Source of the DNA: Funneliformis mosseae
Lineage: Eukaryota > Glomeromycota > Glomeromycetes > Glomerales > Glomeraceae
Reading direction: 5' to 3'
NCBI GenBank assembly: GCA_910592005.1
Contig: CAJVPP010003513.1
Span: forward strand, 1 to 11,430
DNA: 11,430 bases
This document shows, piece by piece, positions 3,011-10,683 of this stretch; position 1 is the stretch's first letter; the number at the start of each line of letters is the position of its first letter. The notes below the pieces were generated by a model. The model was given only the letters and a program-made list of their open reading frames with translations, was not told where the DNA came from and did not search any database. The position numbers and the translations under genes were made by a program.

Positions 3011-4485
3011 AAAAAAAAGCCTTGATTTAACCTTTTGTTATCAGCCTCCAAAAATATAGATTACTTTTACATTATTTACAGTGCTTTTCATTATGCATAT
3101 TATTAATATATAATTTTGTATAACTTATAAATTCTACATTCATAGTAAAATATTATTCTATGCTTCAATATACTATTGAAATGTTAAATAATCATAATCT
3201 CTTTAGGAAGGCCTTGAAAGATTTGCTTGTTTCAATATAATACAAAGTATAACATCATGTTTTCAAATTGGCTTTAATAATTAGGTTTAAATTGACAGAC
3301 TAGATTAACTTTTAATAATATTAATATACAGGATATATTAAAAAATTTTGATAATTTAAAAAAAACTTAATTTAAAGAGAAAATTCGACAGCTTTAAAAA
3401 ATATAATTTAATTAAATAAATAAATAATTAGGTCTTAGATAAATATTTAATGCATATTTTTAGACCTGAAATTGAACTGCTAATCTTTCTTAAAAGCAGT
3501 GTTAGCCTTTTAAATTAATAGACTTTTGAACAATTAGACTATTGAACTAATGGATCTAGTATGATAATTCAGCATTTTGAAATTGTGATATGCAATATAA
3601 TCATCTTAGAATATACAGTGTTAACCCTATGCTCAGCCTGTCAAACTTAGAGTAACTATGACTTAATAACAGAAAGAAACGTGTGAGAAACTACTAAGTT
3701 ACTGTAAAATAAGTCCTATCATAATCAAACCTTAGGTTTATACTTTTAGACGAGTAAAAATAACTTTAACAACTTGTAAACACAATAAATACAATTGACA
3801 TATTAAAGGATTTTTAATATGTGTAGTTTAGAAAGAGATTCCTTTATTGTAGAGATTTGTATCCTTAGTAATCCTTAACTTTCGATTCTAAGTCCTGAAC
3901 TAGAACTATTGAGTTTACACTGTTATCTCTGCCCTTTTGTAAGAACAAATTTCTATCCTATTTATACAGAAATATAATTATAAAAAATTACTAACGCTAA
4001 ACTATTTTATAACGATAAAATAAATATAAAAGATAAATTATAATTTAACAATAATACTAATAGAATAAATAATAATAATAAAATATAAGAATAAAATAAA
4101 TAAAATAAAAATGTTAACTAAGTTAAAAATGCTAATTATGTTAATAACGTTGATCATTCATCAATCTTTATGATGCAATAAGATTAACTTTATATGGTAT
4201 CAACAGTTAGATAGATGTTTATATTTTAGTTGATTATAAAATTTCTAAATTTCAAATTTATTAAAAATTAAATATTGTAATGAATAATTATATAAAATAT
4301 AAAAGTTTTCATATATTATCAAAATATTTTAATTCTCTTTAAAAACTTCACCTATATATATAAATAAAATTAAAACATAAAAATTATATATATAATTTAA
4401 TATTAATTTTAAATTACTTACATATTTCATCAACTTTAATATTTAAAGTTTCTGTAATTTAATATATAAATTAAACTTAAATTAT

Positions 4486-4491
4486 TTTATT
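4486..4491 (-). terminator. Possible polyadenylation signal of the kinase gene
   Basis: The minus strand reads AATAAA about 36 bases after the kinase stop codon at 4527-4529, which is a normal distance for this signal. The sequence here is nearly all A and T, so the hexamer is expected often by chance. Confidence 0.3.
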
Positions 4492-4526
4492 TTTATAAGT
4501 TTATAAATATAATATTTACCAATACT

Positions 4527-5834
4527 TTAACTAATTTCAGTATTTTGATCCAAAATTTTATTTAAATTTTCAGTAAAATCAAATAAACGACTTGTATAAT
4601 ATGCCTGTAAATGAGAACTTCTATTAAATGAAATCTTATTCTTTAATTTATCTGCTTTATAAAATTCTATAATATTATTTCTGAATTCTTTGTTAAAACT
4701 TGTAATTGTAATATTATCAATCCAATATTTAATAATTTCTTTAATTTCTAATGCTGTAGGTCTTTTTAATGGATCCATATTCCAACATCTTTTCATAAGG
4801 TTTATATAACATTGTGGAGTATTTTCAATAATTTCAGGATGTTTACCTTTACATATATCTAAACTAAGTTGAAGATCATGAGCTATATTATTAAATGGAA
4901 AAATTCCAGATATTAATTCCCACATAATCATAGAAAAACTATATATATCACTAGCTAAAGTATAAGTTTGATTTCTTAAAACTTCAGGTGCTACAAATGG
5001 TAAAACACCATATATATCATTTTTTTTAGATAACTGAAAATATTCTACAGGTTTACATAATCCTAAATCACTAATAGATAAAAAATTTTTCATATCAATT
5101 AAAATGTTACCATAATGAAGATCACAATGAATAAGATTTTGCTTATGTATTTCATTAAGTCCAGTAATAATTCTATATAAAATAAATAACTTATTTATCC
5201 AATTATTATTAATAATATTTGATAAATTTTTTTCTAAATTATTATTATTAGCATATTTCATTACTATCATATAATTCAAAGTATTTGGATTTTGAGTAAA
5301 TCCATATAATCTAATAAGATTTTCATATAAATAATTTTGACAAAAACATTTATAATGATATTTCCACTACAAATTAATAAACATTTATTTAAAATAAATT
5401 CTTTAATTTAATAAGAAATTATAAATTTATACCTCATTTAAAAATTCTTCATTTAAATTTGAAGAATTATTAAAATTTTTAAGAATTATAACCATTTCAC
5501 CATTTCTTTCCCATTTATCTATATTATAAAAAAATAATTTTCTTTTATTTTCTTTTTTTCTTATAATATATCCATCTAACCAAATAGCATTATATATAAT
5601 ACTAAATCCTCCTTTATCTAAATATTTAATATTTTTAAATTTATTATAAGAAATCCATTCTAATACTTGTTTACTATGAATAGCATTTAATTGAGTTTCT
5701 TGAATAAATTTATCAATAAATTTATTTTTACTAGTCCAAAGTGAAAAATCTTTTTGAAATTGCTTAGCATTACAATCTTTACACCATTTATATGAATTAT
5801 ATTTTTTATTACAATTTAAACATATACTTTTTTC
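4527..5834 (-). CDS. TKL-type protein kinase, two exons, 5' end not contained
   Basis: Predicted Ser/Thr or dual-specificity kinase that moves phosphate from ATP to proteins. Exons are 5834-5433 (134 codons) and 5366-4527 (279 codons plus TAA), split by a 66-nt GT-AG intron. Numbering from the first exon base gives: cysteines 5, 8, 18 and 21 (CX2C-X9-CX2C, probably zinc-binding); DFSLWTS about 29-35; glycine loop DKGGFSIIY at 73-81; ATP lysine K119 in VIILK; probable helix-C Glu134, the last codon before the intron; IHCDLHYGN with catalytic D216 and N221; DLG in place of DFG with D234; APE at 260-262; DIYSFSMIMWEL from 274; and CW-x6-RPT near 336. All key residues are present, so it is probably active. 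The tail AYYTSRLFDF is typical of the Glomeromycotina family (recalled, not searched). An in-frame TAG lies just before 5834 and the first Met is residue 114, so the start must come from an upstream exon. The TTG at 5279 is not a start. Confidence 0.92.
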
Positions 5835-6151
5835 CTAAATTATAATTATATATTATTAATATTCTTAATTTTTTTAAATTATAATTTATTATTAAATAAA
5901 TATATAAAACTTACTAAATGAAATAATATTAATATAATACTTTATAATAAAAAAGTGAAAAATAATTAGAAAAAATAAATTAATTAATTATTCTTATTTA
6001 AATTGTTATTTAATATTTAAAAATATAAATAGTAAAATACATAAACAATTATTTAATAAAATTAATGAAATAACTTACTTTTTAATATAATAAAAAATTT
6101 AACTGAATTAAAATTATAATTAAATACTGATAAGCAATAAAAACAACTTAC
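5835..6151 (-). other. Unresolved junction between microexon array and kinase
   Basis: This stretch should hold whatever links the array to the kinase, if they are one gene. It contains two decayed array units with good donors (GTAAGT) at 6078 and 5914. In the first the acceptor AG has become AA. In the second the AG sits further away, giving a candidate 25-nt exon at 5915-5939 after a T-rich tract ending in AAAG. That exon would be open into the kinase frame (xxT ATT ATA ... CAT TTA, then GAA) but needs to be entered in phase 2, whereas the array leaves in phase 1. A 24-nt candidate at 6079-6102 after TTCAG is also open but does not change the phase. The acceptor used by the kinase exon, TTTAG before 5834, is clear. 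No solution with canonical sites and reasonable intron lengths was found. Confidence 0.5.
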
Positions 6152-9100
6152 TCTCTAATAAAATTTATTTTTTAAATAAAAATTTAATTGATTTGAAAAA
6201 ATTACAATAAAAAGTATAATTAAATATTGATAATCAATAAAAATAATTTACCAACTAATAAAATTTATTTTTAAAATAAAAAATTTAGTTTATTTTAAAT
6301 TATAATAAATATATAACTAAATAATAATCAATAAAAATAACTTACTATCTATTGTATATTAATTATTTTTTTAAATAAAAAATTTATTTGACTTTTAATT
6401 ACAATAACAAGTATATTAAATACAAATAATTAATAAAAATAACATACCTTCTAATAAAATTTATTTTTTAAAATTAAAAAATTCAGTTAATTATAAATTA
6501 TAATAAATAAATATAATTAAATAATAATAATCAATAAAAATAATTTACCTACTAATAAATTTAATTTTTAAAATAAAAATTTTATTTAATTTTATATTAT
6601 AATAAAAGTATAATTAAATAATAATTAATAAAAATAACTTACTATCTGTTTTATTAATTATTTTTTAAAAATGAAAAAATTTAATTAAACTTTAATTATA
6701 ATAAAAAGTATAATTAAATACTAATAATTAATAAAAATAACTTACCCACTATAAAATTTATTTTTTTAAACAAAAAATTTAATTGATTTTAAATTATAGT
6801 AAAAAAGTAGAATTAATAATTTAATAATCAATAAAAATAACTTGCAATCTAAATTATAAATTTTTTTTTTAAATGAAACTTAGTTGATTTTAAATTATAG
6901 TTAAAAGTTTAATTAAATACTGATAATCAATAAAAATAGCTTACTAACTAAAAAAATTTTTTTACAATAAAAAATTTAATTAATTTTAAATTATAATAAA
7001 AATATAATTAAATATTAATAATCAATAAAAATATCTTACAATCTAAATAATTAATTATTTTTTTTAAATAAAAATTTAGCTAACTTTTAATTACAATATA
7101 ATATATAATTAAATATTGATAATTAATAAAAATAATTTACCTGCTTTAATATTATTATTTTAAAATAAAATTTTAGTTAACTTTAAATTTTAATAAAAAT
7201 ATAATTAAATATTATAATTAATAAAAATAATTTACTTCCTAATAAAATTTATTTAATTAAATAAAATTTTAGATGACTTTAATTAAGTAAAAAGTATAAT
7301 TAATTACTGATTAATCAATAAAAATAAATTACCATCTAATAAATTATTAATTGTTAATTATTAAATATATTTTAAATAAAAATTTAATTGATTTTAAATT
7401 ATAGTAAAAGTATAATTAAATAATGATAATTAATAAAAATAACTTACAATCTATTTTATTAATAATTTTATATATTTTTATAAATAAAAATTAGTTAACT
7501 TTTAATTACAGTAAAAAGTATAATTAAATACTAATAATAATAAAAATAACTTACTCCCTATTACAATTTTATTTTTTTAAATAAAATTTTAGTTAAATTT
7601 AAATTATAATAAATAAATATTAATAATTAATAAAAATAACTTACAATCTAAATTATTAATTTTTTAAATAAACTTTTAATTAATTTTATATTATAAAATT
7701 ATATACTGATAATCAATAAAAATAACAACCTGCTTTAATAATATTATTTTTAAAATAAAAAAAATTAGTTATCTTTAAATTTAATAAAAAGTATAATTAA
7801 ATACTAATAATTAATAAAAATAATTTACTCCCTATTTAAATAAAAAATTTAATAATTTTTAAATTATAATAAAAAAGTATAATTAAAATATTGATAATTA
7901 ATAAAAATAACTTACAATCTAAATTATTAATTTTTTTTAATAAGTATTTAATTAATTTAAATTATAATAAAAATTATAATTAAATACTAAAGATCAATAA
8001 AAATAACTTACTTTCTAATAAAATTTATATTTTAAATAAAAAATTAATTGATTTTAAATTACAGTATAATATATAAATAAATATTAATAATAATAATTAA
8101 ATAAAAATAACTTACTATCTATTATTATTAATTTTTTATAAATAAAATATTTAGTTAATTTTAAATTATAATTTAAAGTATAATTAAATATTAATAAACA
8201 ATAAAAATATTTACTCCCTAAAAAATTTATTTTTTTTAAATAAAATTTAGTCAACTTTAAATTACAGTAAAAAGTCTCTAATAATCAATAAAAATAACTT
8301 ACAATCTAAATTATTAAATATTTATTTATAATTAATTTATATTATAGTAAAAAGTATAATTAAATATTTAAAATTAACTTACTATCTAAATTATTAAATA
8401 TTTATTTAAAATAAAAAATTTAGATATACTTAAATTATAATGAAAAGTATAATTAAATATTGATAATAACTTACAATCTAAATTATTAATATAAATTTAA
8501 TTGAGTTTTAATTAATTATAAAAAAATAAATAAATACAATAACTTACTCCCTTTTGTAATATTTATTTTTTTAAATAAAATTTAGTTAAATTTAAATTAC
8601 AGTAAAATATAATTAAATATTGATAATCAAAAAAGATAAATTACATTCTAAATTATTTAAATAAAAATATTAGTTAAAATAAATTATAAAAAAAGAATAA
8701 AAATAACTTACCATCTAAATTATTAAATATTTTTTTACAAAAAATTTAATAGTGTTTATAGTAAAAAGTATAATTAAATATTAATAAACAATAAAAATAA
8801 CTTACTCCCTTCAGTAATATTTATTTTTTAAATAAGAAATTTAATTGAGTTTAAATTATAATAAAAAGAATAATTAGAGACTGATAAACAATAAAAATAA
8901 CTTACTCCCTTTATTTTTTTAATAAGAATTTTATTGAATTAGAATTATAGTAAAAAGTAAAATTGAATACTGATAATAATAAAAATAACTTACTATCTAA
9001 ATTATCAAATATTTATTTAAATAAGAAATGTTTTTGAATGTAAATTATAAAAAAAGTATAATTAAATACTATTAATAAATAAAATTTAACTTACTTTCTG

Positions 9101-9425
9101 TAATATTATTAATTATAAATAAAAATAATTAAATTTAAATTATAAAAATCAATAAAACTAACTTACGATCTATATTATTTAAATAAACTTTAATTATATT
9201 TAAATTGACAAAAATAATATAACTAAAATATCAAATAAAAAATAACTTACTAACTATAATATCATTTATAAATATTATTTTAATAAAAAATTAATAAAGT
9301 TGTATTACAAAATAGAAATAAAGAAAACTTACTCCCTAAATATAATTAATTATATTTAAATAAAAAATTTAGTTAAATTTAAATTGCATATTTGCGAATA
9401 TAGTAAATATCAAATGACTTACATG
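6152..9425 (-). repeat. Tandem array of 36 intron units around single-codon microexons
   Basis: Mean period is 93.5 bp (67-115). Each unit on the minus strand has an AG acceptor, three bases, a donor, then a fairly conserved AT-rich intron with a TTRAY branch-like site and a T tract. Lower coordinate and minus-strand triplet: 9423 CAT, 9333 GGA, 9251 TTA, 9167 ATC, 9095 AAA, 8994 ATA, 8906 GGA, 8806 GGA, 8712 ATG, 8645 AAT, 8548 GGA, 8475 ATT, 8383 ATA, 8303 ATT, 8215 GGA, 8116 ATA, 8012 AAA, 7916 ATT, 7829 GGA, 7730 CAG, 7645 ATT, 7555 GGA, 7448 ATT, 7333 ATG, 7236 GAA, 7141 CAG, 7040 ATT, 6945 TTA, 6846 ATT, 6746 TGG, 6643 ATA, 6549 TAG, 6448 AAG, 6346 ATA, 6252 TTG, 6152 AGA. Acceptors are TAG in 29, AAG in 5, CAG in 2 and never GAG. 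Donors are GT in 35 and GC in one. The repeat is certain; use of every triplet as an exon is inference. Confidence 0.9.
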
Positions 9426-9815
9426 CTATAGTATTATAAACAAAACCATTATTATTTTTTAAAAAATAAATAAAAAATACATTAATATAACTAAACTTAG
9501 TGACTATATGAAGTTTTTTTTTACCATTTAATTCTTTTATTGTAGGAACATCTGATAATAAATTATTTTTAAAAATTTTATGAATTAATTGTTAAAATTA
9601 TTATTTATCTTTGTATTTAGATTTGAGCAATTTTTGAGGGTAATGAATAATACTTGATTTTACCTTTTAATTCTTCTAATGAAGAAGTTTTTTTAGCATC
9701 TAAAGCTGGTTCTAATAAATTATAAATTTTATTCTTTATGTAATAAACTTTACTTAGGCTTGTTAAATTAATTTCTTTTTCATTATACTTTACCTTTATC
9801 GTCACCGTTAGACAT
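6152..9815 (-). CDS. Microexon gene: three short exons plus 36 three-base exons, 3' end open
   Basis: No known family; function unknown. The start is the ATG at 9815-9813 (A at -3). Exon 1 is 9815-9794 (22 nt, MSNGDDK plus one base), exon 2 is 9711-9664 (48 nt, PALDAKKTSSLEELK), and exon 3 is 9551-9525 (27 nt, DVPTIKELN plus one base). Donors are GTAAAG, GTAAAA and GTAAAA; acceptors are TTATTAG, TTATCAG and ACTATAG; introns are 82, 112 and 99 nt. Every intron is phase 1, so the 36 triplets add codons across junctions. In that phase they read AWINQNRR, then NEWNYNWNKNWTDWNYG, then TDFNLDIEDIE, without a stop. The other two phases have a stop (TAG at 6549-6551; TAA from the second and third units). 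Without splicing the ATG frame stops after ten codons. The product so far is 68 residues, polar, with 9 Asn and 5 Trp in the array part. It probably continues into the kinase at 5834 as its N-terminus, but the phase does not yet fit. Confidence 0.65.
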
Positions 9816-10202
9816 TGTTGTAATCTTAAACGAAAAAAAGTAGTGCTTATATTTTTTCTTGTTTTTCTTTTTAAGGTCGTTGTTTATGCATTGTCATACA
9901 ATAGCTAATATGTTGATCATTTTCGTTGACCGGTTCTTATGACGATCGCAAGCCGACAAAAGATATTAACAAGAATATACTGTATATTCTTAGACTTTGT
10001 GTGGAATAATATAGAAAAAATTGATAAATCAATAGTATCGATTAGTCAATAAATTATTCTGTAAAATAAATAAATGTTAAAATTACAACTTATTTCGAGA
10101 TTGTAATTGTACTATAACCTGATCGACGAATGAAATTTGTGGATTTGTTTATTACCAATTTTGTGTTACGTAAATATTGTTAGCCATGTTATCGAAATTA
10201 AC
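9816..10202 (-). promoter_or_regulatory. Likely promoter and 5' leader of the microexon gene
   Basis: This is the only unique-looking, less AT-rich DNA upstream of the ATG at 9815. The minus strand has a T-rich tract just before the leader (CTTTTTTTCG, near 9831-9840) and then ACAACAATG around the start. I see no firm TATA box that stands out from the background. A perfect 21-nt palindrome lies at 9971-9991. The region is placed as a promoter by position only. Confidence 0.35.
9971..9991. repeat. Perfect 21-nt palindrome upstream of the microexon gene
   Basis: AAGAATATAC, a single central T, then GTATATTCTT: 10-bp arms that match exactly. It sits about 155 bp upstream of the predicted ATG on the minus strand. 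It could be a site for a dimeric regulator or simply a chance feature. Confidence 0.5.
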
Positions 10203-10683
10203 TAGGGATGGATCGGTCCTGGTAATGGGACCGGTCCTTGCGGTCCTCGGTCCTTATTCTGAGGACCGGTCCAGACCGGTCCTTTATTATTTATAGCATA
10301 TATTATTTAAATTAAGGATTAATATTATAAAATACTTATTTTATTTATAAAATATTACAAAATTATAGTTGGTTCGACCTGGTCCGGTTTTCATCTCTCT
10401 TATGGAACGGACCGGTCCATAAGTCCTTGGACCTGTCCTACATTTTACTATAATCTAAATAGAAATGGAAAAATAACGAGATTAACAAAGGCGCAGTAAT
10501 CGTTTTTATGCAATACTTTTTATATATCATTAAATATGTATATATCGAATATTATTTCTAATATGTTCTATACCGATCCTTTGGACCATTCTTGTAAATC
10601 AATCTGTATTGAGAAGGAAACAAATCTTGGACCGGACCGGACCGGACCAACCCTAAAATTAACCCATGTTATTATCGAAATTA
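10184..10683. repeat. Short direct repeat flanking the MITE (old tandem duplication)
   Basis: CCATGTTATCGAAATTA at 10184-10200 recurs at 10664-10683 with a 3-base insertion. Removing the MITE and one copy of its target duplication puts the two copies next to each other as a tandem repeat of about 20 bp. The MITE thus appears to have inserted into the first copy of a small duplication. Confidence 0.6.
10203..10655. mobile_element. Non-autonomous hAT-type MITE, 453 bp
   Basis: The ends are imperfect terminal inverted repeats: TAGGGATGGATCGGTCC at 10203-10219 and, on the opposite strand, TAGGGTTGGTCCGGTCC at 10655-10639, with 14 of 17 bases the same. The element is flanked by an exact 8-bp direct repeat, AAATTAAC, at 10195-10202 and 10656-10663. 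An 8-bp duplication and ends starting TAGGG are the known marks of the hAT superfamily. Inside are several copies of the palindrome GGACCGGTCC (perfect at 10228, 10263 and 10409), which make the element far richer in G and C than its surroundings; such subterminal repeats are usual for hAT transposase binding. No open frame for a transposase is present, so it must have been moved by one encoded elsewhere. Confidence 0.85.

Follow-up and report, generated by a model that had tools for sequence, protein, structure and literature searches.

A tandem array of 36 predicted three-base exons upstream of a kinase-like gene in Funneliformis mosseae, and related arrays in the same genome

The DNA analysed here (the window) comprises 11,430 nucleotides of Funneliformis mosseae, namely positions 1 to 11,430 of contig CAJVPP010003513.1 (GenBank assembly GCA_910592005.1). 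Its gene lies on the minus strand and consists of three small 5' exons, a long array of predicted three-base exons, and two kinase exons, as listed in Table 1. The automatic gene model fuses the third exon through the first triplet of the array into a single exon of 129 nt; a separate first triplet was seen in the paralogues L013, L022, L024, and L027. Elsewhere in the window, broken open frames on the plus strand at 583-1750 appeared by eye to be retroelement-like with an RNase H part (FYTDGS), and a Pfam search of 1162-1425, inside these frames, gave no match. At 10200-10660, several copies of a GGACCGGTCC-like motif occur within a few hundred bases, in AT-rich surroundings.

Table 1 Features of the kinase-like gene in the window.
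Feature	Position	Strand	Basis or remark
First coding exon, ATG, 22 nt, ends in phase 1	9794..9815	minus	Read from the sequence; automatic gene model agrees
Second exon, 48 nt, phase 1 to phase 1	9664..9711	minus	Automatic gene model agrees
Third exon, 27 nt, phase 1 to phase 1, (G)DVPTIKELN	9525..9551	minus	Comparison with L013, L022, L024, and L027
Array of 36 three-base exons (predicted)	6152..9425	minus	First CAT 9423-9425, last AGA 6152-6154; predicted phase-1 joining
Possible terminal unit AG/TAA/GT, weak donor	5911..5913	minus	Position and sequence resemble a unit of the paralogues
First kinase exon (SICLNC...)	5433..5834	minus	Sole open acceptor near the start needs phase 0
Second kinase exon, up to the stop codon	4527..5366	minus	PF07714, E 5.3e-33 for 4527-5279

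On the minus strand, all 36 units of the array showed AG, three bases, and then GT or, in one unit (triplet at 6846-6848), GC, as an earlier sequence-only reading had claimed; its figures for the spacing of the units (67-115 bp) and for the kinds of triplet (16 among 36) were also reproduced. The array is very AT-rich and repetitive, with a repeat unit of approximately 94 bp. One of the 16 kinds is the AAG unit near 6451, which fails one donor filter, and the unit with its triplet at 7730-7732 has a poor donor (CAG/GTTGTT), where the unit finder picked the overlapping reading AG/GTT/GT. With a length below the 30 nt taken as the upper limit for microexons and with canonical AG and GT or GC at their borders, 36 of 36 units have the form of microexons. 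The same reading had held that each triplet adds one codon. One codon's worth of sequence per unit was indeed found, but the exons lie in phase 1 and are not whole codons; that is, the first two bases of a triplet complete one codon and its third base opens the following one. Taken as whole codons, the window triplets include TAG (6549-6551), and in phase 1 no stop occurs at the 35 junctions. Stop avoidance in the window array by itself was not significant in shuffles (P 0.13), because the array is too short. The possible terminal unit at 5911-5913 resembles an AG/TAA/GTATT unit found in L010, L013, L022, L023, L024, and L037.

A strict form of the motif, TTAGNNNGTAAGTTATTTTTATT, gave 199 exact matches in the 82-Mb genome and 0 for the reversed pattern, and the motif is therefore not a product of chance. 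The genome search for AG-N3-GT that had been suggested thus found that the window array is not unique. The matches are on at least 79 contigs, with 195 of the 199 located (95/95 and 100/104 in sub-searches), and the arrays at related loci range from 13 to about 42 units, giving the many consecutive small and frame-keeping exons that characterise the micro-exon gene type. Units were resolved to one per 40 bp, which removed overlapping readings (AGTAAGT as AG/TAA/GT four bases on). In the window and 20 loci, AG was exactly 3 nt upstream of 322 of 376 donor-like motifs, which had been collected with no acceptor required; the next commonest distances of the nearest AG below 25 nt were 0 (15 sites) and 1 (12 sites). 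In the same loci, G+C was 20-26% at the triplet positions versus 2-7% at the 15 positions before the AG. With the intron motif behind the donor as sole anchor, both AG and GT were present at 238 of 369 sites, GT only at 7, AG only at 3, and neither at 121, the last group being taken, with no single check of its members, as other anchor matches inside introns. Hence AG and GT do not drift as freely as the triplet, the outcome that had been named in advance as speaking against exons. Units that have lost their AG occur in arrays that stay open.

Stops were counted after joining the triplets in order and reading them in three phases, using runs of at least 4 units spaced 50-125 bp, and the counts were compared with 5000 shuffles of the order within each run. 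Twelve loci (the window, L014, L022, L023, L024, L034-L037, L043, L044, and L046) formed the open-kinase group, in which open means that the first kinase exon is open by tblastn over the stretch covered; L014 was classed as open though its kinase match continues in a second frame. L010, L015, and L017, in which no four units form a run, contribute nothing to the count. In the 12 open-kinase loci, 329 triplets with 308 junctions contained 0 phase-1 stops, versus 15 stops in phase 0 and 79 in phase 2; the shuffles gave a mean of 16.5 phase-1 stops (sd 3.1) and a minimum of 5 in 5000. The nine loci whose kinase exon is damaged by stops or frameshifts, ruined, or unfound had 9 stops at 119 junctions (shuffle 10.6), and six loci with no kinase exon in the stretch examined had 0 of 69 (shuffle 4.8). 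The open and damaged groups differed with a Fisher p of 8e-6, to be read with two qualifications: the split by kinase exon was first drawn after stops had been seen in L019 and L026, and array stops are absent from five of the nine damaged loci (0/53), the contrast resting on L019, L026, L045, and L047.

Loci that entered at a later stage bear on this result. L034-L037, obtained after the phase hypothesis, had 0 stops at 114 junctions (P 0.005); L043 and L044, with stop-free kinase exons and predicted beforehand to be clean, had 0 at 55 (P 0.002); and L045 and L047, noted beforehand as stop-bearing and each with three stops in the kinase exon, had 2 and 1 array stops, respectively. L046 was likewise first listed as stop-bearing and was moved to the open group afterwards, its kinase exon being open and its array having no stop. 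The five later loci together (L043-L047) had 3 stops at 83 junctions (P 0.06), and all of these P values are optimistic, since paralogues share descent and are not independent. Coding constraint in the frame of the flanking exons was accordingly seen at the level of the family, while it was not significant in the window alone. In an earlier count, 6 phase-1 stops had been found at 323 junctions, all in L019 and L026. The idea that these two are phase-0 arrays was dropped; the kinase exon of L026 is in ruins, and none was found in L019. L026 (2410-7254 and 7650-7900) is a decayed locus of about 50 units with a ruined kinase exon and phase-1 stops, and serves as a natural control.

Other signs of coding pointed to the same phase. 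With codon usage learned from long open frames in these loci, phase 1 was favoured by 5.8 SD over shuffles in nine intact loci, with an excess of 2.3 SD in damaged loci, 3.5 SD in kinase-less loci, and 0.2 SD in the two most ruined loci. The predicted array segment has a length of 13 to about 42 codons, with many N, D, Y, W, and E residues, and begins with W-I-x-[QE]-N in 12 of 14 arrays examined (exceptions, L025 and L036), a count that includes arrays missing only the W where the first unit was undetected (L035 and L044). At the first codons, the triplets were more alike than the introns in 32 of 36 pairs (mean 0.81 vs 0.71). Near the start of the kinase, an AG in phase 1, giving entry to the kinase frame with a single base carried over, was found in 19 of 21 array loci, some of which also have a second, non-fitting AG; the exceptions are the window and L028. 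This count includes acceptors whose G also opens the kinase codon. Furthermore, automatic gene models traverse consecutive three-base exons into a phase-1 kinase exon in L022 (22 exons), L024 (13), and L013 (20, with a damaged kinase exon).

The introns have a history apart from that of the codons. Array introns measure 64-114 nt (190 introns) and have GTAAGT-like donors. The first four often match the intron of the same number in a paralogue (4/4 for L013/L027, 4/4 for L034/L035, and 1/4 for L022/L013), and interior introns are up to 0.95-0.96 identical within and between loci, so that near-identical introns at many loci, a feature of introners, are present here among interior introns (up to 0.96 between loci). 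Flanks and triplets were compared in 346 units of 13 loci, using both 45-nt flanks. For pairs between loci, the per-base identity of the triplets was 0.31 with flanks at least 95% identical (n=15) and 0.35 with flanks 90-95% identical (n=308), random pairs giving 0.36. Within loci it was higher, 0.44 (12 pairs, flanks at least 95%) and 0.56 (78 pairs, 90-95%). Since near-identical flanks enclose unrelated triplets in different genes, introns spread or are homogenised without the codons. Two routes would account for this, namely introns that enter coding sequence three bases at a time, or conversion that homogenises the introns while selection keeps the codons; the present data are compatible with both.

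Growth by recent duplication of units was rejected as the main story, the longest triplet repeat within an array being five. This repeat, in L034, is the clearest trace of unit-block duplication: triplets 14-18 equal triplets 22-26, giving the block ATA TTG ATG GAA AAG twice. Identical neighbouring triplets were not enriched (29/334 vs 25.1 in the shuffle), and along four arrays the mean identity of introns depends little on how far apart they lie. A branch-like motif, YTRAY, was not enriched near the intron ends (114/190 vs 130.7 in the shuffle), and AACTAAA was present in 78 of the 190 introns, its median distance from the intron end being 37 nt. Searches of the own genome found no empty site lacking the introns.

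Pfam domains beside the arrays are protein kinase or Sel1. On the reverse strand of L012, an array at 76-2098, whose 5' end is cut by the contig end, has 22 triplets open in phase 1 and leads towards Sel1 repeats (PF08238, E 1e-35). In L021, the array at 3322-4867 precedes a kinase of another type (PF07714, E 1.9e-21; HRD- and DFG-like motifs by eye). As these two loci show, the arrays occur with more than one protein. The named database proteins closest to the L022 model, among the matches listed, are kinases from Rhizophagus, Glomus, and Funneliformis, in keeping with an arbuscular mycorrhizal fungus as the likely source. In the same genome, kinase relatives (L029-L033 and L038) carry an unbroken N-terminal stretch ahead of the same CxxC...C motif, and these stretches showed no clear similarity to the array peptides. 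A homologue search with the N-terminal part of the L022 model gave 6 candidates, none at E 1 or better, and there was no convincing alignment of the array part among the best 120 of 761 kinase matches. The array peptide of L023 alone gave at best E 0.13 against its own genome; its joined array as a DNA query gave no match, an empty answer that is uninformative in such a search. Pfam assigned no family below E 0.001 to three array-bearing pieces. In these homologue searches, array peptides turned up in no protein and in no contiguous exon.

We regard it as very likely, judging from genomic sequence, that the array is a run of real three-base exons that are spliced in order into a variable N-terminal stretch of a kinase-like protein, and as likely that part of a kinase gene family is encoded at one codon per exon. 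Introns 64-114 nt long, with their GTAAGT-like donors, would be recognised across the intron (intron definition). U1 bound at a donor would cover the triplet and the preceding acceptor. With donor and acceptor only three bases apart, the two could not be occupied together, and neighbouring introns would therefore have to be removed one after another. Each splice would set the next triplet and a fresh donor against the growing exon, a ratchet resembling recursive splicing that would leave one codon behind per step. Loss of the AG or GT of a unit would skip one codon with the frame unshifted; as every unit is three bases long, no loss or skipping of a unit shifts the frame. Introns may be copied or homogenised among units and genes, with selection on the protein keeping the triplets.

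The window itself raises a question of its own. Its array delivers phase 1 and the acceptor of its kinase exon needs phase 0, and hence the two are out of phase. It is an evenly balanced matter whether, among arrays that are real microexons in the family, the copy in the window has recently been broken and no longer makes a full kinase. Only the window and one other of the 21 array loci that have a kinase exon lack an acceptor in the phase of the array, and the automatic model links its array to the kinase only via exons of 1 nt and 25 nt, which we regard as ad hoc. On the other hand, the kinase exon and the 35 array junctions of the window are open, and the same appearance would result from an exon that went unrecognised or from an assembly that is wrong by one base in an A-run. 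Thus the window copy may be recently broken, or the assembly may be shifted by one base. What is concluded for the family does not depend on this copy.

A rather unlikely variant is that the triplets are optional exons, many of them skipped randomly or under control, so that one gene would yield many N-termini differing by codons. Any skip of a 3-nt unit would keep the frame, and the AG-less units in open arrays agree with such skipping. However, the avoidance of stops depends on the order of neighbouring triplets, as the shuffles indicated, which suggests that full inclusion matters. It is very improbable that the array is removed whole, its AG-N3-GT units acting as ratchet points for the stepwise removal of a 3.4-kb intron and the triplets never entering the mRNA. 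The joint conservation of AG and GT fits such points, and close acceptor-donor pairs are a mark of recursive splicing (PMC8605326). But triplets absent from the mRNA should not avoid stops in one phase alone, favour phase-1 codon usage, share first codons among paralogues, or lose their openness in pseudogenes. Moreover, known ratchet points lie in long introns with acceptor and donor juxtaposed and leave nothing in the mRNA, whereas acceptor and donor here are three bases apart and the triplets are constrained as codons. A tandem satellite with incidental splice-like motifs is scarcely credible: the array is repetitive and very AT-rich with nearly identical interior units, but its triplets have 20-26% G+C in flanks of 2-7%, are unrelated between units with nearly identical flanks, and are open or not according to the state of the kinase exon.

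Returning to the reading of the triplets as exons spliced in order, we tentatively propose a broader picture, which we hold with somewhat less than even confidence. A fungal gene family would write whole protein segments one codon per exon, and the near-identical introns would form a population that spreads or homogenises itself and passes among dozens of genes in three-base steps, leaving the codons in place. The array would divide the coding sequence codon by codon with the protein unchanged, each codon being free to be added, lost, or skipped in frame. If splicing proceeds as predicted, one spliceosome handles up to about 40 successive three-base exons, each too small for recognition across the exon. 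One natural gene would then allow tests of how small an exon can be, in what order introns are removed, and how faithfully stepwise splicing proceeds, and gene finders and spliced aligners would be likely to overlook part of these proteins. That introns and codons have had separate histories offers a handle on intron multiplication.

The matches listed from the open-licence PMC literature included neither an array of single-codon exons nor a study of microexons in these fungi. We file the arrays as microexon genes at the extreme of exon size and number. Schistosome MEGs have runs of small exons with lengths divisible by three and encode variable proteins; their exons are longer than three bases, and they differ further in belonging to parasitic animals and in having secreted products. 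Introners, or introner-like elements, are near-identical introns in many places of one genome, whereas the fungal copies examined sit in arrays at three-base steps and in one phase. The exons of aphid bicycle genes are larger than three bases, and these genes, in a further difference, encode secreted proteins. Bicycle and megacycle genes are, like the fungal genes, rapidly evolving families with many microexons, more than 100 in megacycle (PMC9168663), whereas near-identical introns and three-base exons, features of the fungal arrays, are not known from bicycle genes. Exons from 1 nt upwards are known in plants (PMC8831610, PMC4674806). The 1-nt exon of APC11 and 3-nt exons are too small for exon definition, as here (PMC8831610), but those systems are described with one tiny exon per gene or two adjacent ones, in contrast to the fungal runs of 13 to about 42, in which every exon has three bases and the phase is the same throughout. 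Finally, recursive ratchet points share with the fungal arrays acceptor-donor pairs that are close together, and such pairs regenerate a donor after each splice (PMC8605326); ratchet sites usually leave nothing in the mRNA, whereas the fungal units are predicted to leave three bases.
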